A stretch of DNA of 45,858 bases from a bacterium (GTDB lineage: Bacteria > Patescibacteriota > Minisyncoccia > Phycocordibacterales > PALSA-1337). Under the pieces are notes generated by a model that searched no databases, had not been told where the DNA came from, and saw nothing but the letters and a program-made list of their open reading frames with translations. The DNA lies in NCBI GenBank assembly GCA_025355565.1, contig JANXZK010000013.1, forward strand, positions 1 to 45,858. The letters run 5' to 3'. A program made the position numbers and the translations under genes. Below, in pieces: positions 6,444 through 39,692 of this stretch. The number at the start of each line of letters is the position of its first letter. The first letter of the stretch is position 1.

Positions 6444-6512
6444 TGTGATCTGGTTTGATCAAAGCGGGTGCATCATCTGAATGCGACCTGTAGCTTTTAC
6501 CCGCTGTTTGTG

Positions 6513-6518
6513 TAGAAT
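6513..6518 (+). promoter_or_regulatory. Extended -10 of a leaderless promoter (M3 peptidase)
   Basis: TAGAAT at 6513-6518 with a preceding TG (TGTGTAGAAT) ends 6 nt before the ATG at 6525. A possible weak -35 TAGCTT lies 16 bp upstream. Confidence 0.6.
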
Positions 6519-6524
6519 TGGGAG

Positions 6525-8384: not shown

Positions 8385-8408
8385 GGTTCGAGTCTTTTGT
8401 AAAAATGC

Positions 8409-8450
8409 CGAGATATCGCTTCGCAAATTGCGAGTGAGTGAGGGGACAGG
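8409..8450 (+). repeat. 42-bp dispersed intergenic repeat, copy 1
   Basis: This 42-bp intergenic sequence recurs in inverted orientation at 41784-41825 with one mismatch; a partial copy lies at 19230-19256. Its core contains the near-palindrome TCGCAAATTGCGA (6-bp arms around one base). It sits between the M3 peptidase stop and the alaS promoter. Confidence 0.85.
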
Positions 8451-8497
8451 TGTGGAGGATTACTATGGTTCACATTTTTGAAATTGTCTGATATATG

Positions 8498-8503
8498 TTA
8501 CAT
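8498..8503 (+). promoter_or_regulatory. -10 box of the alaS leaderless promoter
   Basis: TTACAT at 8498-8503 (with TATGTT overlapping at 8494) ends 7 nt before the ATG at 8511. A possible -35 TTGAAA at 8478 is close, with a short 14-bp spacer. The position argues for the 8511 start rather than the TTG at 8478. Confidence 0.5.
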
Positions 8504-8510
8504 TTTACCC

Positions 8511-25490: not shown

Positions 25491-25587
25491 ACTCATAACG
25501 ATCTGGAAGGATCTGAACACATTGAACTCACCAGTACATCAGGCGCATTTGGGGGAGTAAACATATATTATGTTTCTATAAAAGATT

Positions 25588-25884
25588 ATGAATAAACCGC
25601 ATCTCATTATCATCCCAGGCAATGGCTCGTCTGATAAAATATGGGCGGAAAAAGCGCGCGACTATTTTGGCGATGATTTTAAATCAGTGTCGGTACAATA
25701 TTATGATCATTGGTCAAACGGCGGTGAATTGATAGATATGAAAGTCGAGCTCAATAAACTTACAAACATTATAAACTCATTGGACGGAAATATTCTGATT
25801 CTGGCCAAATCTATAGGTACGGTGCTGTTCATGTTTTCAATTCATTCAAAATCGATAGGTCCATCACGGATTTGGAATTGGTAA
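25588..25884 (+). pseudogene. Truncated alpha/beta hydrolase (N-terminal part)
   Basis: 98 residues. The beginning HLIIIPGNGSSDKIWAEKARDYFG and the nucleophile-elbow-like ILILAKSIGTVLFM (AKSIG in place of GxSxG) match the first half of small CPR alpha/beta hydrolases, which usually have about 200 residues. After roughly residue 92 the sequence ends in a short tail (SRIWNW) at the point where a radical SAM frame begins. No acid or His half is found nearby. This is a break point, probably the left edge of the accessory island. Confidence 0.65.
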
Positions 25885-26488
25885 TATTACAATTATTGGT
25901 GGAGAACCAACCCTTTGGCCTCATCTAATCGAGTTTAATCAACTCTGTGTACAGTATAAGATCAAAACAACGATCGTTACGAATGCGATTCAGTTTAGTG
26001 ACGATGAGTTTTGGGAACGATATGTAAGCTGTAGTAATGATACTGTAAGCATATCAATCAAGGCTCACAGTGCTCAACTGTTGCATAGTGCTACAGTCTC
26101 GAGTCGGTATGCGCCAATGGTCAAGGGTCTTTGTAGGGCGTTTAAACAATTCAGTGTGGGGGCGAGTACGGTATATAATCGACTCTGTGCTGGACATATC
26201 TTAGATATCGCTCAATTCGCTATGGACTGTGGTGCTCGGCGTCTAAATATTAGTCCATGCACTCCTGCGTTTTTCGGTGGTAAATCTCATGTTGAATATG
26301 TTGTGGAGCCGGCAGTGATGGTCAGACACATTGTAAGTATTTACCCCAAACTTGTTAAGATTGCCAGCGGCAAGTTTTCATTGGCGATGAAGTTACCCCT
26401 TTGCTTCTGGCCAAAAGATTTCATTGACATGTTGATAGCTAACGGTCAAATTATGCACTGGGTTAGTGTACAGTTGACACTAGATTGA
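25862..26488 (+). pseudogene. Radical SAM enzyme fragment (central part, no CxxxCxxC)
   Basis: One open frame begins at the junction near 25862 and runs to 26488, longer than the part after the first ATG at 26081. It contains GFGIGNITIIGGEPTLWPHL (the radical SAM GGEP motif), KTTIVTNAIQFSDDEF, DTVSISIKAHS, SVGASTVYNRL, LNISPCTP, and LPLCFWPKDFIDMLIANGQIMHWVSVQ. The N-terminal CxxxCxxC cluster motif is missing, cut off where the hydrolase fragment ends. It stops where a SPASM domain should begin. A matching SPASM end is found at 37745-37998. Inactive as it stands. Confidence 0.8.
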
Positions 26489-26499
26489 AGCTTGAAAAC

Positions 26500-27783
26500 A
26501 TGAATAACCCCCTTAGCGACTCATGGCTAGCCGACATCAAACGGCGTACCATCGAACGCATGACAAATCTAGCAGAAAAGAAACTAATGCACTGGTTTTT
26601 GCACTGGGTTTCAACACCTTTAGATTTAATAGTAGGATTGATATCGGTTTTGGTGTTATCATACAACAATCTTGCGTACCCAAAGTATTTTATGAATTCA
26701 GGTAATCATCTAAAAATATTCAGCGCTGGAAAGATACATAATCCAGTAAAAGGGCCAATAAAAAGGCCTTCGTTAAAGTATAGATCAATTAAAGTCACTG
26801 TTCCTGCGAGACTGAATACTATGTGTTTTGATTTGAAGACACTTACTAAACCTGAGAAAGAGTTTGTTTATAACGCTGGTGAGCTAGCTTTTTCTGTTAA
26901 TGCAAGTACTTATTCAGAGGTCGCTGTCAATCACAATTCTTCTGAAATAGAAGTGACGGGCAACACAAGAAGGAAATCTATAGTTAGGCATGCAGCTATT
27001 ATTATGAAAAATGTTTTGAATATAGATGAAGGTCTGGTTGTTGAGGCGAATAATATTCATGACTTTCCGCACTCTGGACTCGGTTCATCCTCTAGTCTAA
27101 TAACAGCAGTGTGCATTGCTATAAATGAGATGTACGGGAAACCTTTAGACAGAAGGCAGCTTTCGTTGTTTATTTCTCAAAATCATGGTGAGGAAATAGA
27201 TGGAGATGATCAAAATTTGATACACGTTCAATGCAATGGTGGTTCGCCGTCAGTAGCACTATATAGTGGTGGTATGCAAATAATTGTAGGTGAATCAAAT
27301 GTGGTGCTTCGAAATGATATACCAAATGAGTATACTTTTGTTTTTGGTATACCAAAATTTTACAAAAAGCGAGACGCTCTGGAATTGATGAGTATTGAAA
27401 CGAAACAGTTCGATAAAATGATTGAGTCCAGGGATGATTTTTCAAAGGAAATTGCATGGAAAGTATTGCATGAATTGATTCCTTCGATAATGAATAACGA
27501 TATGGGCATGATTGGAGAGGTGATTAAGTACTATAGATTTGAGACAGGTAGCCTAAAGATAGACTCCGTAACATGGAGTGGTTTATATGAACTGATGGAG
27601 GAGCTTATAAAGATGAAGAATGAGGACAGTCCAATTATCTCAGTATCATCTTGTGGCCCCGCTATATATGCATTGACTCGTGATCCAAAGACGATACAGG
27701 GTTTATTTGAAAAAAAGGGCATGGACATTTTCGTATCAACGCCAAACAATACTGGTTATGAAATACTAGAGGCTCTTGAGTAG
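26500..27783 (+). CDS. GHMP-family kinase
   Basis: 427 residues from ATG 26500 (TTG 26485 is the longer alternative). From about residue 85 it is a GHMP small-molecule kinase: KVTVPARLNTMCFDL, the ATP loop DFPHSGLGSSSSLITAVCIAIN, and a C-terminal VSSCGPAIYALTRD. The CGPAIYA and GGSPSVALYSGGMQII blocks recall the beta-ribofuranosylaminobenzene 5'-phosphate synthase/archaeal GHMP branch. The first 80 residues, including a hydrophobic stretch near 47, are not part of the fold, so the true start may be ATG 26692, or the gene may have fused to junction DNA. Its 3' end overlaps the convergent decarboxylase by 18 nt. The substrate is unknown; a sugar-like or amine pathway intermediate is likely. Confidence 0.75.
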   Translation: MNNPLSDSWLADIKRRTIERMTNLAEKKLMHWFLHWVSTPLDLIVGLISVLVLSYNNLAYPKYFMNSGNHLKIFSAGKIHNPVKGPIKRPSLKYRSIKVTVPARLNTMCFDLKTLTKPEKEFVYNAGELAFSVNASTYSEVAVNHNSSEIEVTGNTRRKSIVRHAAIIMKNVLNIDEGLVVEANNIHDFPHSGLGSSSSLITAVCIAINEMYGKPLDRRQLSLFISQNHGEEIDGDDQNLIHVQCNGGSPSVALYSGGMQIIVGESNVVLRNDIPNEYTFVFGIPKFYKKRDALELMSIETKQFDKMIESRDDFSKEIAWKVLHELIPSIMNNDMGMIGEVIKYYRFETGSLKIDSVTWSGLYELMEELIKMKNEDSPIISVSSCGPAIYALTRDPKTIQGLFEKKGMDIFVSTPNNTGYEILEALE

Positions 27784-28893
27784 ATTTGTGTAACTATCAG
27801 AATATTCTGGAAAGAAAAAAATGGTGTAACAATAACCCTCCGGTCTTTTTATGTGATGTATCCTATATTTCAATTCAGTGTTGTCTGGGATCTTTTTGTC
27901 TAAAAAGAAGCAAACTACGGGCATTCTTTCTTCGGATATATATCTAACTTTCTTTGAAACTAATTCTTTAATAAATATATTTTTGTTTTTTATGATGTGA
28001 TCTATTCTATCGATCAAGCCCCGTTTCTCTAAGTATTCTATGTTGGCCCACATTATTGCGGGTATTGTTCCAGATCGAGAACCAATTAATGTATCATCAA
28101 AAATACTTACGTACTCATCAATTTTATTTATTATTTTACTTTGAAGATCTTTTCGACACATGAAAATACCGGAAGGGTAATAAAATAAACCATATTTGTG
28201 GAAATCAAATGTTATTGATTGAACTTCTGTACGAGAAAAATCAATTTTCTGGCTCTCGGTTAGTGTCACAAAGAGTCCGCCTATGGCAGCGTCTAAGTGC
28301 AGGTAGATATGTTTGTGGTTTTCTTTTAGATAATTAGATATAGATAAGACATCATCAATAATACCGGTCGATGTGTGGCCTATGGTGGCCACACAGATTA
28401 CAGGTCGCTTTTTGTCTCCTATAATCTCCTTGAGTAATTTACCATTAAGTGGTTCTTTCCAGTTCTCGGTATTAGTCTTAAAAAGCTCTAGGTCCAATAT
28501 CCTGCAAGCCTTATCTATGGAATAATGGCTTTCTTTATGAGCAATAACTATCGGTTTACCGTATTTCTTTAATTCTTCTCTGGCTATCCAAAGACCCATT
28601 ATATTACCTTCCGTCGAACCGCTAGTGACATAGCCATCAGCATCTGGGTCTCCAAACCAGCCTGCAAGTTTTTTTATGAGTCTTTTCTCTAATTTTCGGC
28701 AACTATCTTCTGACGTCATCATTCTTGTTGTTGTCCCAATATTATTTGGATTATAGCGAAGGAGTTTGGTCATCTCTCTTAAAAAGTGATTTTGTATAAG
28801 AGGAGGCTGGGGAATACCGAGTCTCATTTTCGAAGCTTTTACTTCTCTTTTTATAACTTTCTTTAATTCAGTTTTTATGTCTCTTTTTTTCAT
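27766..28893 (-). CDS. PLP-dependent decarboxylase (group II, MfnA/Hdc-like)
   Basis: 375 residues. Typical fold-type I motifs: GYVTSGSTEGNIMGLWIAREEL (phosphate-binding), CVATIGHTSTGIIDDV, YLHLDAAIGGLFVTL (the Asp that pairs with the PLP nitrogen), and SITFDFHKYGLFYYPSG with the Schiff-base Lys near residue 233. It is shorter than animal-type decarboxylases and closest in layout to tyrosine/histidine decarboxylases of the MfnA group. It should turn an amino acid into an amine. It is the last gene of a three-gene operon with the SDR (8-nt gap) and the adenylating enzyme. Confidence 0.88.
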   Translation of the reverse strand: MKKRDIKTELKKVIKREVKASKMRLGIPQPPLIQNHFLREMTKLLRYNPNNIGTTTRMMTSEDSCRKLEKRLIKKLAGWFGDPDADGYVTSGSTEGNIMGLWIAREELKKYGKPIVIAHKESHYSIDKACRILDLELFKTNTENWKEPLNGKLLKEIIGDKKRPVICVATIGHTSTGIIDDVLSISNYLKENHKHIYLHLDAAIGGLFVTLTESQKIDFSRTEVQSITFDFHKYGLFYYPSGIFMCRKDLQSKIINKIDEYVSIFDDTLIGSRSGTIPAIMWANIEYLEKRGLIDRIDHIIKNKNIFIKELVSKKVRYISEERMPVVCFFLDKKIPDNTELKYRIHHIKRPEGYCYTIFFFPEYSDSYTNLLKSL

Positions 28894-28901
28894 AAAATAT
28901 T

Positions 28902-30479
28902 TTAAAATCCCATGCTTATGTATTGTACTCCTTTTTTCTTATTAATTATGAAGAGCAGAGGCATGATTAGATTTTCACGTCTTGTTATTTGCATGTAAGA
29001 TTTAACATTTTCGATGTCATTGGCAATTTCTGTTAAATATTCGTTTAGTCCAGTCGTATTGCCGACAAATTTACCATTTAAATACTCCATAGCTATTTCT
29101 GGATCAATATCACGGGGTAGTAGCTTAAAAGATTCTCCTTTCTCAGATTTTGTGAATTGAGCTGAACTTTTTTTTGACAATGTAATAATCGCTTTGTCTC
29201 CAAAACTATTATTATCGATAAGGAAAGACCCATAATACAGTATGTCTTCTTTAACTGGTGAGATTCTAACGGAATAACTTTTCGTGTCTGAACTGTTTTT
29301 AATCATAAACTTTCTTATGGTTTCTGGGTTTCTGGAAAAAAGATGCCCTGTATTAATAACGCTTCCCCCATCATCTCTTATTGTTACACTCCAAATAAAT
29401 TCGTCGTTATATTGAAAATCGGATATTTTAAAATCTTCAACTTTCTTATAAATTTTCACCGGAAGAGTTTTGTTTGGAAACAAGAACTTTAATATCTTCA
29501 CACCCTCTGACCTTTCTATGAAGTTTAGATTGTTGAAAGTGTTTTCTGCGGCATCTTTAATGGTGTGCTGAGGATTCCAATCCAGAAGTTTCTTTGCTTT
29601 TGTGCAATCGAAAGCCCTGTCTCTCGAAAAACCTAGAACGTCTTCTTTGAAAAGGGAAGGTCTACCTTTCCCTGCGTTAAAGTTCTCGAGCTCTTTCTCT
29701 GCTTGTTTAATAGCATCACTAATTGGGATGTTACGCGGTGTTTTTTCTTTATTTATAAGTAAATACAATTGATTTATAAAATCCTTTTGTTTGACTGGCT
29801 CGTCGGAGAGATTAATGTCTATGTTTTTGATCTCCTTTTTTTCTAATATTGATAATAATGCGCCGGTCAGATCTTTTTCGTGAATAAAACTAAATCTATT
29901 GTTACCGTCGCCAAAAATAGCTGCTTTATTATCGATTATTGCTTCTTTCAATCTGATAAATTTGGTTTTAAACGATTTGCCTAAAATTATTGGGAATCTT
30001 ATTATTATGTATGGAATACCAGATTGATGGAGTGTCTCCTCGGCTAGTAATTTATTTTTGCCGTAAATGCTTACAGAGTTCTTTCTCGAGTCTTCAAGGA
30101 TAATGCTTGAATCTGAATCACCGTAAACAGAAGAAGAGGAACAAAAAATCACTCTTATGTTTTTGATAGATGAATCCTTCAGATGATCTAATAAGTTTTT
30201 TAATGTGGTGACGTTTTTGCTTGACTTTTCCTCATCTAAATAGTCAGACTCGCCTATGGTAAAAACGATATCATCTGCGGTGGATAAGACATCGTCAATC
30301 TTTTTGATCTGGTCTTCTTCATTGAAGTCGATTTTGATCAGACTTTTATAATTTTCTGTGTCTTGGGGGTAGTGGTTGTTGTAGGTTCCGATCAACAAAT
30401 AATCAGAATCATTTAATGTTCCTGATATGGCGTGCGCCAGGCAACTTGATGCTCCAATTATTAATAACTTTTTTTTCAC
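28902..30479 (-). CDS. SDR/epimerase-like protein with an unknown C-terminal domain
   Basis: 525 residues. Residues 1-310 form an extended SDR: LLIIGASSCLAHAIS (an NAD-loop variant), VIFCSSSSVYGD, the YGKNK catalytic Tyr/Lys pair, RFPIILG, and FSFIHEKDLTGALL. The next ~40 residues end with AKKLLDWNPQHTIKDA, typical of sugar-nucleotide epimerases. Residues about 340-525 belong to no family I recognise: beta-rich, with WSVTIRDDGGSVINTGHLFS, YSVRISPVKEDILYYGSF, and a helical end. The start codon overlaps the stop of the upstream ligase gene by 4 nt (ATGA), so the two are translationally coupled. It probably acts on a sugar or polyketide-like intermediate tied to the adenylating enzyme. Confidence 0.75.
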   Translation of the reverse strand: MKKKLLIIGASSCLAHAISGTLNDSDYLLIGTYNNHYPQDTENYKSLIKIDFNEEDQIKKIDDVLSTADDIVFTIGESDYLDEEKSSKNVTTLKNLLDHLKDSSIKNIRVIFCSSSSVYGDSDSSIILEDSRKNSVSIYGKNKLLAEETLHQSGIPYIIIRFPIILGKSFKTKFIRLKEAIIDNKAAIFGDGNNRFSFIHEKDLTGALLSILEKKEIKNIDINLSDEPVKQKDFINQLYLLINKEKTPRNIPISDAIKQAEKELENFNAGKGRPSLFKEDVLGFSRDRAFDCTKAKKLLDWNPQHTIKDAAENTFNNLNFIERSEGVKILKFLFPNKTLPVKIYKKVEDFKISDFQYNDEFIWSVTIRDDGGSVINTGHLFSRNPETIRKFMIKNSSDTKSYSVRISPVKEDILYYGSFLIDNNSFGDKAIITLSKKSSAQFTKSEKGESFKLLPRDIDPEIAMEYLNGKFVGNTTGLNEYLTEIANDIENVKSYMQITRRENLIMPLLFIINKKKGVQYISMGF

Positions 30480-31585
30480 TTTCTTAAATCAACAATATGT
30501 TTTATCTTGTTTGAGATTGTTTTAGGGACTTCCACGTTTTCGTTAAAGATGATTTCCTTTTTGCAAGAAATGAAGGCCAATGACTGTTGAATATCTCTTT
30601 CTCTTTCTTTGAAATGATTGTCGATGGTAATCTCCAGCCAATCTTTATCCTCTTTTGTTTTTATGTTAATAATAAATTTATCTGTGAATTTATTTAATAT
30701 TTCGATGAGTTTAGCTTTTGAAGTCAGTGTTCCTTGTAATTTAATCAGATCATCATTCCTCCCAACAAGTAAGAACTCTTTTAATGAGCCGTCTTTGTTA
30801 AGTTTGATATCCTTGATAATATCTTTTGTATCGTATCTAATTATTGGAGTAGAATAATTATTTAAGTCGGTAATTACAAAATGAAGTCCATCCTCATTTT
30901 TTATTGCTTCGGCATAAATACCGTCATTGATTACTTCTATAGAAAGCAAATTGTTCTTTTTTGATACTCCTATTGCTGGGCATTCAGTCAGTCCAAAGTG
31001 GTTTGAAACTTCGACCCCAAATTTCTTAAAGCTTTCAATGTATGACTCCAGAAGCTTCTCGCCGGCTACTATAACTTTCTTTGGTTTGTAGTCCGAATTA
31101 AGGTCACGTAGAACACCTAATAGACCTAAGGCATAGCTTGGCACAGAAAGCCATACAGATGGTCTGATTTTGTGCATACACTCCACAACTTTTTCTTTTG
31201 AGTATGTGTTTGGTGCACCTAACGGCAACACCGCTATTTTTTCAAGCTGGCAGGCTTTCTCGTACATGCTTCCGGGGACATAATTACCATAAGCAAATAA
31301 GTTGAGTGCAATATCTTTTTTAGTTACCCCTGATTTTTTCAAAGATACACGAGTGCGGTTTATAAAAGCATTGACCGCTTCTTCTGAATAGAATACGTAA
31401 AGCGGATCACCAGTAGAACCGCTTGTAATCCTCAGTTCGGAAAATTTTTTTGGTACTACGGATGATATTACATTCTTTTTATCAGTAACAGAAATTTTGT
31501 TCCACAAATCCTTACCTTTAGCTCTTACTTTGTGCTTGGTGAGCAGTTTTTTTCTAGATGTTAACGAATTGGTTGGATTGGTCAT
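30476..31585 (-). CDS. PaaK-like AMP-forming adenylating enzyme (ANL family)
   Basis: 369 residues, somewhat shorter than phenylacetate-CoA ligase (about 430). Visible ANL motifs: SELRITSGSTGDPLYVFYS (P-loop, near residue 50), IRPSVWLSVPSYALGLL, KKVIVAGEKLLESY, SNHFGLTECPAIG (the A5 motif), and YSTPIIRYDTKDI followed by GRNDDLIKLQGTLTSKAKL (the A8 hinge). It should activate a carboxylic acid as an acyl-adenylate, perhaps then as a thioester. First gene of the ligase-SDR-decarboxylase operon with a perfect TATAAT upstream. No carrier protein is seen nearby, so the acceptor is unknown. Confidence 0.85.
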   Translation of the reverse strand: MTNPTNSLTSRKKLLTKHKVRAKGKDLWNKISVTDKKNVISSVVPKKFSELRITSGSTGDPLYVFYSEEAVNAFINRTRVSLKKSGVTKKDIALNLFAYGNYVPGSMYEKACQLEKIAVLPLGAPNTYSKEKVVECMHKIRPSVWLSVPSYALGLLGVLRDLNSDYKPKKVIVAGEKLLESYIESFKKFGVEVSNHFGLTECPAIGVSKKNNLLSIEVINDGIYAEAIKNEDGLHFVITDLNNYSTPIIRYDTKDIIKDIKLNKDGSLKEFLLVGRNDDLIKLQGTLTSKAKLIEILNKFTDKFIINIKTKEDKDWLEITIDNHFKERERDIQQSLAFISCKKEIIFNENVEVPKTISNKIKHIVDLRK

Positions 31586-31614
31586 GTTTTTAGTGTTAAT
31601 TCTAAACAGCCGTG

Positions 31615-31623
31615 ATTATACCA
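31615..31623 (-). promoter_or_regulatory. Extended -10 promoter of the ligase-SDR-decarboxylase operon
   Basis: On the minus strand TGG-TATAAT, with a perfect -10 occupying 31620-31615. Initiation would be near 31608, about 22 nt before the ATG at 31585; no ribosome site is visible. The -35 is weak. Confidence 0.6.
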
Positions 31624-31706
31624 CGAAAAAGAGGGGGAATCTAGATAATTTAGAGATATTTGATGGATATGTTATTATCTTGATGTTGCTAATCTAAGTA
31701 ACAAAT

Positions 31707-32600
31707 ATGGACCTAAAAAACATCAAAATTTGTATATCTGAGGATGTTGCCAAAATACAACATAATTCTGACATATTGTCACAGTGGCCAATAAGCTCAG
31801 TTGAAGCTATGTATTATTCGGGTCCATTTTTCATGAAATTACTTGCTGAAAGTGTCTTGGGCTCAGGTGATTCAGCGGATGATTTATTTAAAAATGGATT
31901 CTATCCTGGCAAACTTTCAAATCTAATTTTTTTCTTCCTCAATGAAAAAGTTAAGGAAATTATGGGAGCTGAAAATTATTCAAATTTACTCAATTTGATA
32001 ATATCAAAAATATCAATACTGCGGGAAGACGATCTTTCACTAAGGAAAAATAGTTCGACTATAATGCCACATTGGCTAATTGAAAACGATACAGATGAGG
32101 TGTCAGCAAGGCGAACGGTTTTTCTTCTCGATAACTTAGTCGAGATGGTAAATCCTATTTTTCGGTCATTTGGGGTTCAGTTGTTTTTCGACAAAAAATA
32201 CGCATATCGTTATTACTACAGAACAGGTTTGGATTTCAACGTTGTAATAAAATCTCCGAAAGAAGGGATGGCCGTCGATTATTTTGAGCATGTAATTAGT
32301 CCAGAGAATCTTGATTCCTCAAAAGTGTATAAGGAGACAAACGGCAAGCTTAGTGGTATGGATACAGATGATCTAAACCAAAAATTGGTAGAAAAGGTTG
32401 GTGATATAAAAGGCTTGAACACTTTTGATCGGAAATATGTAATTCAACAGATTTATGATTCTTTTGGGCTCAAAATACCGAATGAACAATTAATGTTTCT
32501 AAGCTCTCCGTTTCCTGAAATAGTGAAAGAAATGTATATCAAGACCTGTTTAATACCAATTGAGTATTTAGAAAAAGGCATACTTAATTTAATAAAATAA
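31707..32600 (+). CDS. Unknown protein in an operon with a phosphohistidine domain
   Basis: 297 residues, soluble, mostly helical by eye, with one beta-rich stretch around FGVQLFFDKKYAYRYYYRTGLDFNVVIKS. I do not recognise a family. Five nt separate it from the swivel-domain gene, and the nitrilase follows 5 nt later, so all three are one operon. In single-chain dikinase-like phosphotransferases (PEP synthase, rifampin phosphotransferase) the ATP-grasp and swivel domains work with a third domain that binds the phosphate acceptor. By position this protein could play that part, with the ATP-grasp encoded at 35777-36721. This is inference from context only. Confidence 0.55.
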   Translation: MDLKNIKICISEDVAKIQHNSDILSQWPISSVEAMYYSGPFFMKLLAESVLGSGDSADDLFKNGFYPGKLSNLIFFFLNEKVKEIMGAENYSNLLNLIISKISILREDDLSLRKNSSTIMPHWLIENDTDEVSARRTVFLLDNLVEMVNPIFRSFGVQLFFDKKYAYRYYYRTGLDFNVVIKSPKEGMAVDYFEHVISPENLDSSKVYKETNGKLSGMDTDDLNQKLVEKVGDIKGLNTFDRKYVIQQIYDSFGLKIPNEQLMFLSSPFPEIVKEMYIKTCLIPIEYLEKGILNLIK

Positions 32601-32605
32601 CATTC

Positions 32606-32914
32606 ATGACACTAAAAGGAATTGCTGCATCAGGTGGCTTGGTAAAAGGAAGAGTCCGGGTCTATTCCAAAGGTCTTTTATATTCAAATGAGGACATACT
32701 AATCGCAAAGAGTACCACTCCTGAGATGTGTGTGGAAATTCTAAGTGCTGGAGCAGTGATTACAGAACATGGTGGATTACTGTCGCATGCAGCAATATTT
32801 TGCAGGGAAATAAAAAAAGTTTGTGTTGTTGGAGTAAAAGAGCTTTTCGGTAATTTAAAAGATGGTGACCTCATCTCAGTTAACGGTAATACTGGCGAGA
32901 TAGAAAAAGTGTAA
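32606..32914 (+). CDS. Stand-alone PEP-utiliser phosphohistidine swivel domain
   Basis: 102 residues. This is the mobile domain normally at the centre or end of PEP synthase and pyruvate phosphate dikinase, here as a free protein. GIAASGGLVKGRVRVYSKG begins the fold, ILIAKSTTPEMCVEILSAGAVITEHGGLLSHAAIFCREIKKVCVVGV carries the phospho-acceptor His 61 in the GGxxSHxAIxxRE signature, and LKDGDLISVNGNTGEI closes it. It needs a separate ATP-grasp partner; the only candidate in the window is the minus-strand gene at 35777-36721. Confidence 0.9.
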   Translation: MTLKGIAASGGLVKGRVRVYSKGLLYSNEDILIAKSTTPEMCVEILSAGAVITEHGGLLSHAAIFCREIKKVCVVGVKELFGNLKDGDLISVNGNTGEIEKV

Positions 32915-32919
32915 AAATA

Positions 32920-33984
32920 ATGACAAACATTAAACAAAATTGGTTCAATGAATTATTAGAAGATGTTAATCTTAAAACAACATCTTTCGTAAAGAACACT
33001 TTTCCTGATAATAAATTCGTTGTTTTGTCTCAGGAAGAAAAAGATGGCTATATTGAAAGAGAGATAATGTTCATTCTTGGTCCGTATTCCTTGTGTTACG
33101 CCAAAAACAAATTGAAAATTAATGATATCGTTAGACAATGGACGAAAGATGAACCTTATGTGCCATTTGGTAAGATATTTGACAATAAAGATTTGACTAG
33201 GACACTAGTGTCAAAAACTCAAGATTCTAGGAAGTATAAAGTTTCTGGTGAGATTGAGGCAGAAATAGAAGAGACCTTTTTCGATTTAACTGAAATAAGT
33301 GTGTCGGTTTTTTGCGGGAAAGTACAGTCGAATGAAAAGGACGTATCTCTTGCAAAGGATTTTCAATTAAAAAATAGGTCCAACCTATCTCTTTTCGCGG
33401 AATCATACCCTTTTTCCAGGATGGTGGTGCAAAAGGGAATTTTTGCTAGCGGAACTGTGTATGGGGGATATGGGATAAACGGCCCAGAGACTTTCTTTGT
33501 TAAGGATGGAGTTGACGTAAAAATTAATAAAAATACTTTATTTGCTAATGAAAAGAAAACAGAAGATAAAGAATTTTTGCCAGAAATAATTGATTATAAT
33601 GGTGTTAGGCTAGCAATATTGGTGTGTTACGATCTTCTAAATCCAAAACTGTCGTATTTTCTCTCAAAACAGAATTTAGATCTAATACTTGTTCCATCAA
33701 TGATACCTAAGGAGGATTCTTCTAAGTGGGAAAAGTTTATTTACGCAAGAGGTCAGGAAATTCAATGTAACATAATACTTGCAAGCAACGAAGATAAAAG
33801 AAATATATGTTCTTCTCAAATTCTTTTTTATGATGCGACGAAAGAGACTGTTTTTGAAAAAAAAGAACCATTAGTTATAACTTTTAAAGTTGGCAAAAAT
33901 AAACTAACAAAATCCCCAAATGTGCATTGGAGTTGGCTTTTGAGAAATAAGGTATTCGGCCCTTTTACCGATGATTTTAATTAG
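32920..33984 (+). CDS. Nitrilase-superfamily carbon-nitrogen hydrolase
   Basis: 354 residues, with a ~150-residue N-terminal part not recognised as nitrilase. The catalytic triad can be read: Glu in LSLFAESYPF, Lys in KINKNTLFANE, and Cys 236 in RLAILVCYDLLNP. The remaining C-terminal fold matches (LDLILVPSMIPKEDSSKWEKFIYARGQEIQCNIILASNED). Members hydrolyse or form amide and nitrile bonds, so an amidase or amide synthase step is likely. It is last in the operon with the swivel domain; its 3' end overlaps the convergent trpF-like gene by 4 nt. Confidence 0.8.
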   Translation: MTNIKQNWFNELLEDVNLKTTSFVKNTFPDNKFVVLSQEEKDGYIEREIMFILGPYSLCYAKNKLKINDIVRQWTKDEPYVPFGKIFDNKDLTRTLVSKTQDSRKYKVSGEIEAEIEETFFDLTEISVSVFCGKVQSNEKDVSLAKDFQLKNRSNLSLFAESYPFSRMVVQKGIFASGTVYGGYGINGPETFFVKDGVDVKINKNTLFANEKKTEDKEFLPEIIDYNGVRLAILVCYDLLNPKLSYFLSKQNLDLILVPSMIPKEDSSKWEKFIYARGQEIQCNIILASNEDKRNICSSQILFYDATKETVFEKKEPLVITFKVGKNKLTKSPNVHWSWLLRNKVFGPFTDDFN

Positions 33985-34607
33985 GATTTAACCTTATTGA
34001 TAAAGTTTTTAACTTTATTTAGATCTCTGAAACCTTGAGCATTTCTAAGAGATGATTCTACGTCAACAGCGAATGGATTAAGTGCGACTATTGCAGACAA
34101 AACATTTTCTTCATTTAAGCCACCTGCAAGAAAAATTGGGATAGGGGAATTTTCAATTATTTTTTTGCTTATGTTCCAGTCGTGTAGTTTTCCTGTCCCA
34201 CCTAGTTGATTGTCCATTTTTGAGTCTAATAATATAAAGTCCGCGCTATAAAACTGTTTAGCTAAGTTTTCTGACTGTTCGTTGACGACGTGGACGACGG
34301 GAATTATTTTGGTGCTTGTTTTACCCAATAGACTTTCAAGACATTCAACTGTCGGACGTAACAGTTGCACACCCCAGGGGGATATTTTCTGAATAATTTC
34401 TAAAAGTTTTTTAGGATTATTTTCTAAAGTTAATATTACAAATTTAAGATCTGGGTTGCTAGACACTATTGTCTTTGTTTCATTTTGCGTTAAACTCAGA
34501 TTCGTTTTGGGTATATCGACTAGTAAACCGAGATAATCAGCACCCATGTCGTGAGCTGATCTTGCTTCTTCGATAGTTTTTATGCCGCAAATTTTTATTT
34601 TAGTCAT
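33981..34607 (-). CDS. trpF: TrpF-like phosphoribosylanthranilate isomerase
   Basis: 208 residues, a full single-domain (beta/alpha)8 barrel. TrpF signatures: KIKICGIKTIEEA with the catalytic Cys 7, ADFILLDSK with the general-acid Asp, LGGTGKLHDW (phosphate loop), IFLAGGLNEENV, and AVDVESSLR. No other tryptophan gene is in the window, and CPR genomes usually lack the pathway, so it may isomerise a different aminoaldose in the island pathway. The start codon directly follows the stop of the phosphatase gene (TAA-ATG), so they are co-translated. Confidence 0.85.
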   Translation of the reverse strand: MTKIKICGIKTIEEARSAHDMGADYLGLLVDIPKTNLSLTQNETKTIVSSNPDLKFVILTLENNPKKLLEIIQKISPWGVQLLRPTVECLESLLGKTSTKIIPVVHVVNEQSENLAKQFYSADFILLDSKMDNQLGGTGKLHDWNISKKIIENSPIPIFLAGGLNEENVLSAIVALNPFAVDVESSLRNAQGFRDLNKVKNFINKVKS

Positions 34608-35150
34608 TTAATTGAAGTTAAAAATATTGACAGACCCGTTGTTTATTAAATCTAAGTCTTTCTTTTTATATATATGATTCATGAGTCTTAAAATTCCTCC
34701 GTGAGTGATAATAACAACTTCGTCGTTGTTATGTTTGTTTTTTAATTCTTCAACAAAATTGACCACTCTTTTTTCTACATCTTCAACTGATTCTCCAGAA
34801 AATTCATGGAAATCGTATTGTGATTGTTTATATTTTTCTCTAAGACCTCTTAATTCATTGTTTTCTATATCGGTCCATGAACGACCAGTTAAAGAACCAA
34901 AATCAACCTCACGTAATTCTGGTCTAAGACTGATTTGTAGATTGAAGTTCTTGTTTATAATGTCGGCTGTTTGGGTAGCTCTGAGTAAATCAGATGAATA
35001 TATAGCAGATATTTTTTTTGGTAGAGCAGGGATTGTATTCATCACTGTTTTGTAGGCGTCTTCAGTCAAAGAATCGTTGATTTTTTGACCATTTATAACA
35101 CCTCGTTTGTTGCATTCGCTGAGGCCGTGTCTGATTGCATATATTTTCAT
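34608..35150 (-). CDS. Histidine phosphatase family (phosphoglycerate-mutase-like)
   Basis: 180 residues from ATG 35150, chosen because MKIYAIRHGLSECNKRG is the family start; longer starts at 35162 or 35222 are possible. The catalytic RHG (His 8), IYSSDLLRATQTADII, the RPELREVDFGSLTGRSW block, and the second His in VVIITHGGILRLM are all present. It resembles alpha-ribazole/broad-specificity phosphatases more than glycolytic mutase. It is paired with the TrpF-like gene, suggesting it dephosphorylates an intermediate in the same route. Confidence 0.85.
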   Translation of the reverse strand: MKIYAIRHGLSECNKRGVINGQKINDSLTEDAYKTVMNTIPALPKKISAIYSSDLLRATQTADIINKNFNLQISLRPELREVDFGSLTGRSWTDIENNELRGLREKYKQSQYDFHEFSGESVEDVEKRVVNFVEELKNKHNNDEVVIITHGGILRLMNHIYKKKDLDLINNGSVNIFNFN

Positions 35151-35273
35151 GATTGTGCTCATTTTACTATAAATAGTAGTGGTCTGCATTTGTTTGACAA
35201 CCTTTAATAAAAATGCCATCATTTATACGGATGATCTTGGAATAAAAATTGTTTAAAAAGAAAGGAGGGAGGC

Positions 35274-35714
35274 ATGGTTATCCTTGTTCTCTGCTCGGCA
35301 AATAAGCTTCGTAGTCCTCTGTTTGCAGCAATCTTAAGGTTTCGGCTTGGCGTCAGTCATGTTGTCATGAGTGCGGGCGCTAAGACTCAGAAATGGGGGT
35401 TGACTGGACAAAGAGCGAGTAAAGAAGCTGTGGAGTCTGTTTTCTCGCTAACGAATGGCATGGTCAATCTTGATAACCATCGTGCAACGCCTGTTGAGGT
35501 GTTTAACTTGGGGGGATTTGACCGGATTTACACCCTGTCAGGTGATTCGCACGAGTATGTGAAGTCTCTAGGAGTTAGACATACACATATCGTTATGGAG
35601 GATCCTTATGACAGGGGCACTCACCTGGTTGACCTTCAAAAACATCAGATCTGTGAGAGGACTGTTGTGGAGGAGGTTTCAAAGATTGTTGCAGCAATTG
35701 AGATTTCAGAGTGA
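35274..35714 (+). CDS. Low-molecular-weight phosphotyrosine phosphatase-like protein
   Basis: 146 residues. The P-loop C7-SANKL-R13-S14 at the N-terminus has the CX5RS pattern of LMW-PTP/arsenate reductase folds, and HIVMEDPYDRG holds the general-acid Asp in a DP motif. Although the loop differs from the usual CxGNxCRS, the Cys, Arg and Asp are all there. A very strong ribosome site (AAAGGAGGG) lies 5 nt before the ATG, and a strong terminator follows 10 nt after the stop, so it is an autonomous single-gene unit. The substrate is unknown. Confidence 0.75.
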   Translation: MVILVLCSANKLRSPLFAAILRFRLGVSHVVMSAGAKTQKWGLTGQRASKEAVESVFSLTNGMVNLDNHRATPVEVFNLGGFDRIYTLSGDSHEYVKSLGVRHTHIVMEDPYDRGTHLVDLQKHQICERTVVEEVSKIVAAIEISE

Positions 35715-35723
35715 TAGTTTAAT

Positions 35724-35765
35724 GGGCACACGAAACGAAAGTTTCGTGTGCCCATTTCTTTTTTT
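35724..35765 (+). terminator. Strong rho-independent terminator
   Basis: Perfect 13-bp stem GGGCACACGAAAC/GTTTCGTGTGCCC with a GAAA tetraloop at 35724-35753, followed by ATTTCTTTTTTTG. It serves the LMW-PTP-like gene on the plus strand and could also act on the convergent minus-strand ATP-grasp gene. Confidence 0.95.
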
Positions 35766-35776
35766 GATGATTCAAA

Positions 35777-36721
35777 TTATTTTGAAAGAGTGGTAATTGG
35801 TCGACTTTGCATTATGAAGAATTCATCGTTTTCATATGCCCACTCAATATCACACGGGAAACCGTAGTGACTTTCTATCTTTAAGATTATTTCTGTAAGG
35901 TTTAAAATCTGGTCTTGATCAAGAACTTGTTTCTTTCCATTATCTTTCAGGTCTCTCCATTCATTACCACCACCATCTTTCGGGTATAAACCCCTAGCTT
36001 GTTCGAAGACGTTTATGTCAATTATTTTTCTTGGGATCTTTTCAACAATATAGCTATTTGGGGTAATCTGTCCTGAAACAATAGCTTCACCTAATCCGTA
36101 TGCAGCTTCGATGACAAGTTGATTCGCATTTTCTGTAACAGGATGAACGGAAAATGCGACTCCAGACATTTCAGATTTAATCATTTTTTGAATAACTACC
36201 GCCACAGATATTTTAATTTTGTGTAAACCTCTCTCAAATCGGTAAAAGATTGAGCGAGGAGTAAATAAAGACGCCCAGCAGAGTTTCATATTATCAAACA
36301 GATTAGTTTCGGTGGTGTTTAGGTATGATTCAAGTTGCCCGGCCCATGAGTGGTCTTTGCCGTCTTCAGTTGTTGCCGAAGAACGAACCGCCACACATTT
36401 CGTGTTTAGGGCATTAAAATGTTTCTTGATTTCACTGGTAATATCTTCTGGTATTTTCTGTGAGATAATAAGACCCTTAATTTTTTCAGAAGCTAGTTCT
36501 ACTGTTTGTATATTTTTATGGTTGACTGTACTCAAAATCGCATCTATTTCTTGGAGTAGATCGGTTTCCTGGATAAATTTTTCAAATGCGTTTGAAAGCA
36601 CAACGAAGCCGGGTGGTACAGAGATTCCTGCACGAGTCATTTCTCCAAGAGAAGCCCCTTTTCCACCGGCGATTTCGGAGTCTTCTTTGTTTAAATTGCT
36701 GAGATTCCTGATTAATTCCAT
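35777..36721 (-). CDS. Stand-alone PEP synthase-type ATP-grasp domain
   Basis: 314 residues. This is only the N-terminal nucleotide-binding domain of PEP synthase/PPDK: GGKGASLGEMTRAGISVPPGFV at the start, CVAVRSSATTEDGKDHSWAGQLESYLN, VVIQKMIKSEMSGVAFSVHPVT, VIEAAYGLGEAIVSGQITPNSY, and DIEWAYENDEFFIMQSRPIT at the end. Intact PEP synthase is about 800 residues. The missing swivel domain is a separate gene at 32606, and no PEP/pyruvate barrel is seen, so the pair probably phosphorylates something other than pyruvate. A leaderless -10 precedes it. Confidence 0.88.
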   Translation of the reverse strand: MELIRNLSNLNKEDSEIAGGKGASLGEMTRAGISVPPGFVVLSNAFEKFIQETDLLQEIDAILSTVNHKNIQTVELASEKIKGLIISQKIPEDITSEIKKHFNALNTKCVAVRSSATTEDGKDHSWAGQLESYLNTTETNLFDNMKLCWASLFTPRSIFYRFERGLHKIKISVAVVIQKMIKSEMSGVAFSVHPVTENANQLVIEAAYGLGEAIVSGQITPNSYIVEKIPRKIIDINVFEQARGLYPKDGGGNEWRDLKDNGKKQVLDQDQILNLTEIILKIESHYGFPCDIEWAYENDEFFIMQSRPITTLSK

Positions 36722-36727
36722 GATTGG

Positions 36728-36736
36728 ATTTTAACA
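36728..36736 (-). promoter_or_regulatory. Extended -10 of a leaderless promoter (ATP-grasp gene)
   Basis: On the minus strand TGT-TAAAAT, with the hexamer occupying 36733-36728; it ends 6 nt before the ATG at 36721. No ribosome site. Confidence 0.6.
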
Positions 36737-36805
36737 CATAAACAATATTCTAGGTTACTGACACAACAACGTCAACAAAAATGACAGTCATCTGTAACTT
36801 TCATA

Positions 36806-36834
36806 GTCACTCTTGTGTCACTTTTGTCACTTTT
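36806..36834. repeat. Three 9-bp direct repeats between divergent genes
   Basis: GTCACTCTT (36806), GTCACTTTT (36817) and GTCACTTTT (36826) lie in the 217-bp region between the divergent ATP-grasp and NUDIX genes. The spacing of 9-11 bp puts them on about the same helix face, as a regulator site might be. Confidence 0.6.
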
Positions 36835-36864
36835 TGCTAGCGCACGAGACGCGTCGATGTGGTA

Positions 36865-36927
36865 AGCTAGAACTAAACAATTCCGTTAAACATGGCTTTG
36901 ACCGACCATGGTTCTAGCTCGAGGAGG
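36865..36927 (+). promoter_or_regulatory. Structured leader and ribosome site of the NUDIX gene
   Basis: Outer stem AGCTAGAAC (36865-36873) pairs with GTTCTAGCT (36911-36919); inside it CATGG (36891) pairs with CCATG (36906). The strong GAGGAGG ribosome site follows 1 nt after the outer stem, at 36921-36927. The fold leaves the site free, but an alternative fold could hide it, so a regulatory leader is possible. Confidence 0.5.
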
Positions 36928-36938
36928 CCAGCAAACAC

Positions 36939-37445
36939 ATGAAGATTATTGAACAATTCAAACAAGACCCGTCAGTGACTTTTGAATATGTGGATGCAAA
37001 TAGTTTTGTAGAATTGGATGTGGCTTTTTGCAAACAAAGTTATGGGATATGTTTTTGCGATGGCAAGCTTGTCATTGTTTTTGGTTTCTTTGGTGGAAAA
37101 GAAAGAGAATGGGGTTTCCCAGGAGGAAGAATTGAGCCAGGGGAAACATATGAAGATGCACTCAAACGAGAGATCAGAGAAGAATCAAACATGGAAGTAC
37201 TTTCATTCGTGCCGTTGGGCTACCAAAAAGGTAGCAGATCAGGTCAGGGTGTTTTTTCATACCAGCTTCGTTATGTATGCAAGGTTAGGCCTTATGGTGA
37301 CTTTATAGCAGATCCAGCAGGTGGTGTGATTACGGCTGTAAAACTGATTGACCCTGTAAATTACGAAAAATATCTTTCTAATTGGGGCAAAATAGGCGTT
37401 CGTTCAGTGGAAAGGGCACGAGAATTACTCCCAATATTACATTAA
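36939..37445 (+). CDS. NUDIX hydrolase
   Basis: 168 residues. The Nudix box is complete: GGRIEPGETYEDALKREIREESNMEV (Gx5Ex7REUxEExGU pattern) near residue 65. NUDIX enzymes cleave nucleoside diphosphates linked to another group (house-cleaning or nucleotide-sugar/CoA/NAD breakdown). A GAGGAGG site lies 11 nt upstream. It ends near the mosaic of broken genes at 37.5 kb. Substrate cannot be judged. Confidence 0.88.
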   Translation: MKIIEQFKQDPSVTFEYVDANSFVELDVAFCKQSYGICFCDGKLVIVFGFFGGKEREWGFPGGRIEPGETYEDALKREIREESNMEVLSFVPLGYQKGSRSGQGVFSYQLRYVCKVRPYGDFIADPAGGVITAVKLIDPVNYEKYLSNWGKIGVRSVERARELLPILH

Positions 37446-37552
37446 GAAGGTTCCAATAACATCACAGACGGTCAGCCATGATCTGGGCCCCATTTAGTGG
37501 GTACGCCCATCGATTTCTTTTGTTAGAATTACTAACAATTAACAAAAGAAAC

Positions 37553-37681
37553 ATGAGAACAATTTTCACAAAGGAAGAAATAGTGGAGTTCAAAAAGCAC
37601 CCGTGTGTTTTTCACTGTAGCGAAAGGTCGATACATTACACATATGAATTCAAGAAGCGTGCATTGGAACTGCATACATGA
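37553..37681 (+). pseudogene. Fragment of a transposase-associated HTH protein
   Basis: MRTIFTKEEIVEFKKHPCVF and then CSERSIHYTYEFKKRALELH matches the start of small helix-turn-helix proteins that precede IS3-type transposases; the frame stops after 42 residues, where DNA of another origin begins. An AT-rich inverted repeat TTGTTA/TAACAA lies just upstream (37520-37538). Confidence 0.5.
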
Positions 37682-37745
37682 GATACGATATGATATTGAG
37701 TTTGAAAAACTCGATTATGACAATGATCACCTTCATATTCTCACA
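37682..37745 (+). pseudogene. Fragment of an IS200-type transposase
   Basis: A 21-codon stretch encodes RYDIEFEKLDYDNDHLHIL, which carries an HUH-type DHLH motif in the context seen in IS200-like TnpA proteins. It is cut on both sides, by the HTH fragment before and the SPASM fragment after. Confidence 0.45.
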
Positions 37746-37998
37746 AGCTTTCGGCTGTATCGCAGTCTGCAACAGTCTTACGGATTGTCCCATAGGAAAA
37801 TACGGTGTAGATTTCAATGATGGAAATTCATTGTTGTCACACTTGAATAGTCCGTTAGTGACAAAACTGTATGATCGGATTACATCATACCCTTCAACCA
37901 AATGCGTCGACTGTGAGAAGTTCGACATGTGCGGTGGCGGATGTATGATGTTTTGGACATCTTTCAAACCTCAGGATTGTATTCCTGGTTGGAAATAA
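37745..37998 (+). pseudogene. SPASM-domain C-terminus of a radical SAM enzyme
   Basis: About 84 codons read FGCIAVCNSLTDCPIGKYG, then LNSPLVTKLYDRITSYP, then KCVDCEKFDMCGGGCMMFW, giving the SPASM CxxCx5Cx3C set that binds an auxiliary 4Fe-4S cluster. The preceding part of the enzyme is replaced by transposase debris. The piece starts just about where the radical SAM fragment at 25862-26488 ends, on the same strand and in the right order. It is followed 31 nt later by a cysteine-rich peptide gene, the usual partner of SPASM maturases. Confidence 0.8.
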
Positions 37999-38029
37999 TC
38001 TTATCTCTACAAGAAAGGAGGTGAAAAAT

Positions 38030-38179
38030 ATGGATTCAGCTATACAACTGCTTGAGTTACCGTTAACGGGAATAGTTCCCCAGTCTCGTCCGCAGGGCAT
38101 TGTACATCGCAGCGTCGCGTCGTCTGGTGATGACTGCGATTGTGATTGCGCCCCGCCGAATTGCGAAACCGTTGCGTAA
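38030..38179 (+). CDS. Candidate RiPP precursor peptide, Cys-rich C-terminus
   Basis: A 49-residue peptide with an excellent ribosome site (AAGAAAGGAGGTG, 5 nt before the ATG). The N-terminal two thirds (MDSAIQLLELPLTGIVPQSR...) has no cysteine and looks like a leader; the C-terminal core is SSGDDCDCDCAPPNCETVA with cysteines at 36, 38, 40 and 45 alternating with Asp. It lies directly after the SPASM end of a radical SAM enzyme and has its own terminator, then an HExxH protein. This is the architecture of thioether-forming radical SAM RiPPs. The maturase next to it is broken, so it may now be orphaned or modified in trans. Product unknown. Confidence 0.6.
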   Translation: MDSAIQLLELPLTGIVPQSRPQGIVHRSVASSGDDCDCDCAPPNCETVA

Positions 38180-38204
38180 GTCATCACGTAAGTGAATACT
38201 CAAA

Positions 38205-38242
38205 CTCCCGTAGATCTAAAAGTCTGCGGGAGCCTTTATTTC
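38205..38242 (+). terminator. Terminator after the precursor peptide gene
   Basis: Stem CTCCCGTAGA/TCTGCGGGAG (10 bp with one G-U pair), loop TCTAAAAG, then CCTTTATTTCC. It lies 25 nt after the peptide stop codon. Confidence 0.75.
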
Positions 38243-38253
38243 CATAAGTATGA

Positions 38254-38281
38254 TTGTTATAATATTACAATTCGATATACT
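38254..38281 (+). promoter_or_regulatory. Promoter of the HELWH metalloprotein
   Basis: -35 TTGTTA at 38254-38259, a 16-bp spacer, and -10 TATACT at 38276-38281, ending 9 nt before ATG 38291. An alternative -10 TGT-TATAAT lies at 38255-38263. Confidence 0.5.
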
Positions 38282-38290
38282 TTACTTTCT

Positions 38291-38935
38291 ATGAAAATAC
38301 TATTTAAATACGACGAGGATAAGGATATAGATTGCCTGCTCTCAAAGGGTGCCGGTTCGATCAATCAGCCTGGCAGTAAGACCAAGACTTATTTGGCTCT
38401 TGAAGCTTTTACGTCTGATATTAATGACAGAAACAAAGTGAGAGAGTTTGTCAGAAGATACATTTTAGATAACAAGATTCAACCAGAAACCCTTTGCATT
38501 TCCATGCAAAATACTTGGGATCAAGTAGGTGCGAGATTTGAAAAACGTGCAAAAGATATTTTCGGGGTGCAAATTTCAGACACAATAACCGGTTATTTAA
38601 CGATAACAGGTAGATTTCCATACAATACAAAACATAAGTTTTTCTATGTATCAACCAATGCGGTAAATATAAATGGTACTGCAATGCATGAATTATGGCA
38701 TTTTTATACCTGGGAGAAATTTGGGGAACGAGAGATTGTAAGGTTAGGAATGAATAAATATAACGATGTTAAAGAGGCACTGACTATTTTATTGAATTTG
38801 GAATGTTCTGATCTTATGACTGCAAATGATTACGGATATCCTCAGCATCAAGATCTGAGAAAAATAATAGCGGATACGTGGTTGAAGACGAAGAATATAG
38901 TGGATACATGGGATGCGGCATGTAATGCCATATAG
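38291..38935 (+). CDS. Putative zinc metallopeptidase (HELWH)
   Basis: 214 residues from ATG 38291, which follows a -10 box. AMHELWHFYTWEKFG holds an HExxH zinc site at residues 133-137; no signal peptide or membrane helix, so it acts in the cytoplasm. A possible third ligand is one of the acidic residues in the helix NKYNDVKEALTILLNLE. No exact family recognised. Its place 110 nt after the candidate RiPP precursor makes a leader-removing protease conceivable, although the terminator between them means separate transcription. It could equally be an unrelated cargo gene. Confidence 0.55.
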   Translation: MKILFKYDEDKDIDCLLSKGAGSINQPGSKTKTYLALEAFTSDINDRNKVREFVRRYILDNKIQPETLCISMQNTWDQVGARFEKRAKDIFGVQISDTITGYLTITGRFPYNTKHKFFYVSTNAVNINGTAMHELWHFYTWEKFGEREIVRLGMNKYNDVKEALTILLNLECSDLMTANDYGYPQHQDLRKIIADTWLKTKNIVDTWDAACNAI

Positions 38936-38948
38936 AAAAAGTCTCAAT

Positions 38949-39323
38949 TTATCGGCTTAACTCCGTTCGGATAACATCCCAGACGGCCAGCAAAGTTTTA
39001 ATATCACCTGTTTTGGGTGCATTTGCCATGATGTCATAGGGACTTCTGTAGCTTACTTGAGCCATGGCTCCGTCTCTCATGGAAAGGTTCCAAAGTATCT
39101 TTGAAGCGATAGTACGCTTTTCATCGTCGTTTCCATCCACAAAATCTTTCATGGCTCTGTTTCCAAGTAGAAATGCTTCTCTGGTTGGTTCCAAAGTTAA
39201 AATGCCACTCTTGCTTTTTGCATCACTGATCTGCTTTTCGGTTGAGATTTTCTCATTTTTGACATGAGATATATTGAGAGTAATATATAGTTGTGTCTGT
39301 GGGCGCAAGCCCTGTTCAGTCAT
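38949..39323 (-). pseudogene. C-terminal fragment of a serine site-specific recombinase
   Basis: 124 codons. GILTLEPTREAFLLGNRAMKDFV, then DDEKRTIASKILWNLSMRDGAMAQVSYRSPYDIMANAPKTGDI, is the characteristic C-terminal tail of large serine recombinases found in Parcubacteria. The resolvase catalytic domain and zinc ribbon are missing. It sits at the right edge of the island, next to the core gene cluster with pheT, and may be the remains of the enzyme that delivered part of it. Confidence 0.7.
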
Positions 39324-39360
39324 GGAATTTCCCTAAACTGAAGAGCAGGCACAACAAAAG

Positions 39361-39383
39361 ACGCCTCATGCGAGGTGTTTTTT
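39361..39383 (+). terminator. Rho-independent terminator at the island edge
   Basis: Stem ACGCCTC/GAGGTGT (one G-U pair), loop ATGC, then TTTTTTG. No complete plus-strand gene ends just before it, so it probably belonged to a lost gene, or insulates the pheT side. Confidence 0.65.
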
Positions 39384-39436
39384 GTAAGAAGACATATATC
39401 TAATAGATAACATATCTATTCTAAGACCAGAAATAT

Positions 39437-39442
39437 GATAAT
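39437..39442 (+). promoter_or_regulatory. -10 box of a leaderless promoter (DUF1653 gene)
   Basis: GATAAT in TATGATAATATG ends 8 nt before ATG 39451. No ribosome site. No convincing -35. Confidence 0.5.
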
Positions 39443-39450
39443 ATGTATTG

Positions 39451-39669
39451 ATGACCATCAAACCCGGAAAATACAGGCATTCAAAAAAAGGCAATGAATA
39501 TAGGGTGCATTTTGTTGCAAAAGATTCGGAAACGTTGGCAGATGTTGTCGTTTATGAAGCTCTCTATGACAACGACAAATCGAAATATTGGGTAAGACCG
39601 GTGGCGGAATTTGAAGGAATGGTCGAGATCGATGGTAAGCACGTCCGTAGGTTTGAGAAGGTAGAATAG
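39451..39669 (+). CDS. DUF1653 family protein
   Basis: 72 residues from ATG 39451 (TTG 39448 is directly upstream). KPGKYRHSKKGNEYRVHFVAKDSETLADVVVYEALYDND...YWVRPVAEFEGMVEIDGKHVRRFEKV is the complete DUF1653 pattern, a small beta-barrel of unknown role found across bacteria as a single domain. It is 23 nt before pheT and likely co-transcribed with it. Confidence 0.9.
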   Translation: MTIKPGKYRHSKKGNEYRVHFVAKDSETLADVVVYEALYDNDKSKYWVRPVAEFEGMVEIDGKHVRRFEKVE

Positions 39670-39692
39670 TCGATACATAAATATTTACTCCA

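Follow-up and report, generated by a model that had tools for sequence, protein, structure and literature searches.

Probable remnant of a radical SAM/SPASM RiPP cassette from a family recurring in CPR bacteria

The window analysed here, the whole stretch of 45,858 nucleotides, very probably carries the remnant of a radical SAM (rSAM)/SPASM RiPP cassette whose local maturase no longer works and which belongs to an undescribed family recurring in CPR bacteria. Sequence comparisons support this cassette model with a recurrent gene neighbourhood, with homology of three components and with the residues of the rSAM, SPASM and HExxH motifs. As judged from the sequences, a new variant of an rSAM RiPP family is well supported. 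The features on which the analysis is based are the following.

25588 to 25861, plus strand: truncated alpha/beta-hydrolase-like ORF at the left-hand junction, fused to the rSAM middle piece; named by eye
25862 to 26460, plus strand: middle piece of the rSAM gene, without the N-terminal ~60 aa bearing CX3CX2C
26485 to 37445, no strand assigned: AT-rich island splitting the rSAM gene (GC 0.357; ~11.3 kb)
37553 to 37740, plus strand: probable debris of a transposon beside the right-hand junction, with a weakly HTH_Tnp_2-like N-terminus
37741 to 37998, plus strand: C-terminal piece of the same rSAM gene, coding for the SPASM auxiliary-cluster domain and assigned by TIGR04085 and identity to a relative (L067)
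38030 to 38179, plus strand: 49-aa RiPP precursor with a Cys-free leader containing an LTGI motif and the core ...SSGDDCDCDCAPPNCETVA
38205 to 38232, plus strand: intrinsic terminator between the precursor and HELWH genes (11-bp stem, 6-nt loop, T-rich tail)
38291 to 38935, plus strand: HELWH protein, predicted to be a small gluzincin-like metallopeptidase from homology, invariant residues and structure model

The precursor gene and its signals

The initial annotation had described a 49-residue peptide with a ribosome site, starting 31 nt after the SPASM ORF, and the sequence agrees exactly: the ATG lies at 38030 and is preceded by AAAGGAGGTG at about 38014-38025. The four Cys were found at the residues that had been named (36, 38, 40 and 45), and residues 1-35 are free of Cys. 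Within the 45.9-kb window this is the sole small ORF that combines a preceding SD with a CxCxC motif. The terminator that had been ascribed to the peptide corresponds to the hairpin at 38205-38232 (fold z=-3.9), and the HELWH protein said to follow it to the ORF at 38291-38935. A promoter scan gave results at chance level.

Searches of Pfam and NCBIfam with the window peptide revealed no match, and a single-sequence search in 147 relatives returned the peptide itself and chance matches only. A candidate homologue in L005 was rejected, as the match lies inside a peptide-release-factor-like gene.

Homologous loci in other genomes

Loci were gathered by rSAM homology alone, and these searches revealed intact relatives in the same order as the window genome. 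A search of 84,980 species genomes then gave 73 loci, of which about 22 hold full-length rSAM relatives, and one viral contig also carries an rSAM relative. On the viral-classed contig L144 (IMGVR_UViG_3300047523_000011, 5953-7268) a full-length rSAM of the family is followed by a Cys-rich ORF. The hosts include Portnoy-, Nealson-, Kaiser-, Campbell-, Taylor-, Falkow- and Saccharibacteria and WWE3, together with a small number of genomes from Bacillota and Nitrospirae; the 23 rSAM relatives are mostly from CPR bacteria, and many relatives are fragmented MAGs.

A short Cys-rich (CxC) ORF lies near the enzyme in 22 of the 23 loci, L075 being the exception. An SD-preceded ORF with at least three C-terminal Cys was found immediately downstream of 18/23 rSAM genes versus 6/157 of the remaining genes in these loci (p=1.5e-15), a comparison for which the ORF criteria were fixed after the first examples and in which the counts are not phylogenetically independent. 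Two of the six positives among the control genes are themselves precursors of the same system. An adjacent precursor gene, by which a radical SAM/SPASM RiPP maturase may be recognised, is therefore kept across genomes. Precursor homologues beside intact rSAM/SPASM genes occur in many CPR genomes, which supports the RiPP locus proposed in the initial annotation. The linkage of HExxH proteins to such loci holds as well: the motif is present in 12/32 mid-sized proteins near the rSAM gene versus 4/99 farther off (p=6.6e-6), and about half of the 23 rSAM relatives have such a protein. M16 peptidases are encoded in the L056, L067, L068 and G067 loci, and a prolyl oligopeptidase (S9) in L061.

The precursors of the intact relatives are 38-99 residues long, with a Cys-free stretch of 24-43 residues before the first Cys in all but L065. 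One residue is the commonest gap between Cys (65/123). The cores end similarly in the window peptide (GDDCDCDCAP), L054 (GDCDCDCAP) and L066 (NDDCDCDCAC), and a leader motif [ST]GI is present in the window peptide and in all seven members of the window rSAM subclade. Against curated family models none of the precursors scored above cut-off; the common leader motif and core offer search patterns for further members. Much longer Cys arrays, with 15 and 21 Cys, were observed in the Bacillota loci L069 (7007-7255) and L065 (7020-7319); an example from Pumilibacter muris is CDCACVCECDCDCHCVCECDDCDCYC.

The lack of a Pfam or NCBIfam match, and of a clear homologue in the single-sequence search of the 147 relatives, would fit a 49-aa frame that lies behind a pseudogene and is open merely by chance. 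Such a frame would hardly be expected to have a strong SD and a terminator of its own, nor to share core and leader with the precursors of the enzyme's own clade, and these homologues leave chance with an extremely low probability. A second reading takes the Cys/Asp-rich peptides as unmodified metal-binding, metallothionein-like molecules, with the rSAM enzyme acting on some other substrate. The CxC spacing and the Asp, Glu or Asn directly before 80/146 Cys would suit metal chelation; however, the immediate rSAM-precursor order in 18/23 loci, the Cys-free leader with its conserved motif, the protease neighbour and the nearest folds, which are those of RiPP maturases, all argue against it, and we consider it very improbable. 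We thus retain the reading of the peptide as a RiPP precursor.

The interrupted radical SAM/SPASM gene

The ORF at 37678-37998 matches the SPASM model TIGR04085 with E=1.1e-4 and 22.6 bits, below the 27-bit cut-off. Its SPASM residues start only at about 37741, and the claimed motif C-x2-C-x5-C-x3-C is present (CVDCEKFDMCGGGC). A profile (A2) built from two intact relatives and searched against the window gave two matches, one at 25868-26473 (profile positions 60-265, E=2.6e-56) and one at 37732-37983 (profile positions 270-352, E=7.5e-28). Individual alignments with L067, from a Campbellbacteria genome, showed 48.8% identity over 201 aa for the middle piece (L067 residues 61-261) and 50.6% over 77 aa for the C-terminal piece (L067 residues 272-348). 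Since L067 is the best match of both pieces (~50%), they belong to one gene. The statement that the enzyme is only a C-terminal fragment was consequently right for 37741-37998, whereas the middle part had been missed at 25862-26460. In a tree the middle piece alone is placed in the window clade (98/96 with L067, 95/92 for the clade), and this position among the enzymes with [ST]GI-leader precursors ties together pieces that are now 12 kb apart.

The first ~60 residues of the rSAM protein, including CX3CX2C, are absent from the genome, which is 99.7% complete. CX3CX2C is invariant in 22/22 aligned relatives, and so is the SPASM motif CX2CX5CX3C; having no CX3CX2C, the window rSAM is a broken member of the radical SAM/SPASM maturases. 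With the N-terminal ~60 codons lost and the gene split, the local maturase must be dead. The sequence thus presents the window cassette as a relic, in which the peptide is intact and a working local maturase is lacking. In L052 (G225:C7) and L053 (G364:C60) an rSAM gene of the same family is likewise frameshifted or broken, which hints at frequent loss, although MAG errors are possible there.

The island that splits the gene differs in GC content from pheS and pheT (0.357 vs 0.48). It encodes a GHMP kinase, a PLP decarboxylase, an epimerase, an AMP-ligase, PRAI (PRA isomerase), phosphatases, a PPDK_N protein and a Nudix protein, the PPDK_N domain (35777) being apart from a PEP-utilising mobile domain (32606), and may represent a biosynthetic cluster of its own. 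The debris at the right-hand junction matches PF20310 with E=0.006, below the cut-off, and contains an IS200-like stretch called by eye. Where the two genes could both be located in genomes of the same genus, pheS is immediately 5' of pheT, while in the window they are 14.2 kb apart (gap 25491-39692). Cassette and island therefore both lie inside this gap, which, from this gene order, has received two or more insertions. No direct repeat that would join the two junctions was found in a search for such repeats, and the internal rSAM junction lacks residues in comparison with L067; for these two reasons a programmed excision or rearrangement of the island was rejected.

The split could also be an artefact of assembly or binning, with a misjoined island and an intact cassette in the living genome. 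The genome is a draft in 27 contigs, and the related MAGs G225 and G364 also have broken rSAM frames. On the other hand, the two sides of the split share a single contig and are flanked there by pheS and pheT, transposon-like debris is found at the junction, the internal junction lacks residues, and the N-terminus is absent from a genome of such completeness. An artefact is therefore unlikely, and we continue to read the gene as truly broken.

The HExxH protein

The HELWH ORF encodes 214 aa from its ATG. Searches with Pfam and NCBIfam models gave nothing credible, but profile comparison revealed homology to the HExxH proteins of L059, L064 and L074 (hhalign 99.4%, E=5.7e-22) and, more distantly, to the type found in L055 and L067 (hhalign 98.7%). 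All 11 window-type and RiPP-linked proteins that were aligned have H133, E134, H137 and E162. An invariant Glu 25 residues past HExxH is the signature of gluzincins, and both elements are present here. In the structure model (pLDDT 90) the fold could be aligned with M1 enzymes, which account for all top matches (VIA Z 8.3, rmsd 3.2, 146/214 residues aligned); a Foldseek search with the model gave no significant match, with E above 0.1. The protein resembles gluzincins (M1, LTA4H, M4) in HExxH and downstream Glu, and may do so in its predicted fold. It differs from them in its length of only 214 aa and in belonging to no Pfam family, and its gluzincin-like role is a prediction.

We propose from these sequence features that the HELWH protein could be the leader or core protease. 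Its closest homologues, in L016 and L017, lie outside rSAM contexts, and this type of protease is therefore not exclusive to RiPPs.

Other radical SAM genes in the genome

The initial annotation had considered that the peptide might rely on an enzyme copy elsewhere. The only other related enzyme in the genome is encoded by an intact rSAM/SPASM gene (G000:C11, here C11; L026, 7686-9062) beside a HEMSH protein (region 6978-9062), and it speaks against such reliance, being of another clade with another leader. With its relatives in the order it forms a separate clade (100/100); in most of these relatives an rSAM, a CxC precursor and an HExxH protein are encoded together, and the leader is of the GF type. 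The enzymes of the two clades fall into sizes of 340-370 aa and 430-465 aa. A precursor was sought beside the C11 enzyme and none was found.

Maturation of the window peptide in trans by C11 would be in line with the intact state of this enzyme, with the apparent lack of a precursor of its own and with the CxC-type precursors that adjoin its clade elsewhere in a similar neighbourhood logic. Its distinct clade and a C-terminal extension read as PqqD-like point the other way, as does the leader of most precursors of that clade, which is GF-type (GF[VIE]xL-like) as opposed to [ST]GI in the window peptide. We regard maturation in trans as quite improbable.

In L057 (2256-5774) a clade-1 triad is followed by a 486-aa protein and then by a peptide, MPKPGFDSLLADASGIGTDEAGCDCYDCNYNCEECDNK, that resembles the clade-2 precursor of L154; going by these sequences, this contig seems to hold both cassette types side by side. 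A third peptide-maturase-like rSAM was found in the window genome (G000:C16; L027, 256-1844), matching TIGR04136 with E=3.7e-39, below the cut-off. Upstream of it lies a 63-aa ORF, MSKNVTPEQGRIALCGVHSCCPTVDFTEP..., and the locus is possibly another RiPP system of the same genome.

Comparison with known systems

PapA/PapB are ranthipeptides with Cys-Asp beta-thioethers, and in vitro PapB tolerates Cys-Xn-Asp spacings of n=0-6 (PMC9413430). They share with the family an rSAM/SPASM maturase and a Cys/Asp-rich core after the leader, and the PapB model aligns to the full length of the relatives. The scores with this model (NF047865) are, however, far from its 340-bit cut-off: 43.5-70.1 bits for intact relatives of both clades, 43-48 bits for L010 and L011, and 11.8 bits for the window fragment. 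The window core DDCDCDCAPPNCETVA differs in having CxCxC with D between the Cys and no CX3D/E, and its neighbour is an HExxH gluzincin-like protein. PapB chemistry, linking Cys to Asp, would be a reasonable starting assumption for CDCDC cores; it cannot be general, since the cores of L063 and L064 are devoid of Asp.

Among solved structures, SuiB (E=1.4e-22), CteB (2.8e-17) and SkfB (1.6e-16) come closest in profile and fold searches, in addition to sulfatase maturases. Identity of SuiB, SkfB and the SCIFF/thermocellin maturase CteB to the family is low (15-18%), and their precursors are unlike. FibroRumin (TIGR04136/TIGR04135) also pairs an rSAM with a Cys-rich target, and one relative's precursor gave a marginal match (E=0.041), but with 13.9 vs 45 bits; the window peptide gave none, and neither precursor nor enzyme reached the cut-offs. 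Enzymes compared with NCBIfam equivalogs reached no cut-off either. A defence system was rejected, because its models match only via the common viperin-like rSAM core. Among RiPP clusters, graspetides are known in CPR bacteria (PMC8939145), which differ in using ATP-grasp instead of rSAM chemistry and have no known relation to the precursors described here. A literature search of partial coverage found no description of a CxC-precursor rSAM family.

Discussion

In the intact relatives, the rSAM/SPASM enzyme would be produced together with a precursor of 38-99 residues and would most likely recognise the short hydrophobic leader motif [ST]G[I/x]. By radical chemistry it would then form cross-links at Cys in the acidic, CxC-rich core, with thioethers as the best guess for their type. 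The leader would be removed by the small gluzincin-like HExxH protease, which an M16 or S9 peptidase sometimes may accompany or replace. Modification, cross-link type, protease substrate, export and biological role are what we infer for the family from its gene content.

A new product class for the window peptide is possible but unproven. That two rSAM clades of CPR bacteria follow the same logic of a CxC/Asp-rich core and an HExxH protein tentatively suggests a peptide class with undescribed cross-links, possibly metal-binding or directed by these host-dependent cells at a partner; we hold this to be less probable than its opposite.

Few natural products have been described from CPR bacteria, which are believed to live on other microbes. 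In an antiSMASH survey the RiPP-type clusters of CPR bacteria were mainly YcaO (PMC12153355), and another survey reported no RiPP-type clusters among the Patescibacteria MAGs that it covered (PMC11613949). The recurrent rSAM RiPP cassette is compact, at about 2 kb, has an unusual core rich in CxC and a protease that looks dedicated to it, and provides intact and easily expressed test cases among the relatives. The long Cys arrays of the Bacillota relatives might be testable directly in a cultured host; the Pumilibacter muris record names a strain. The cassette would thereby give a route to the chemistry of these peptides and to a possible role in host-cell contact.
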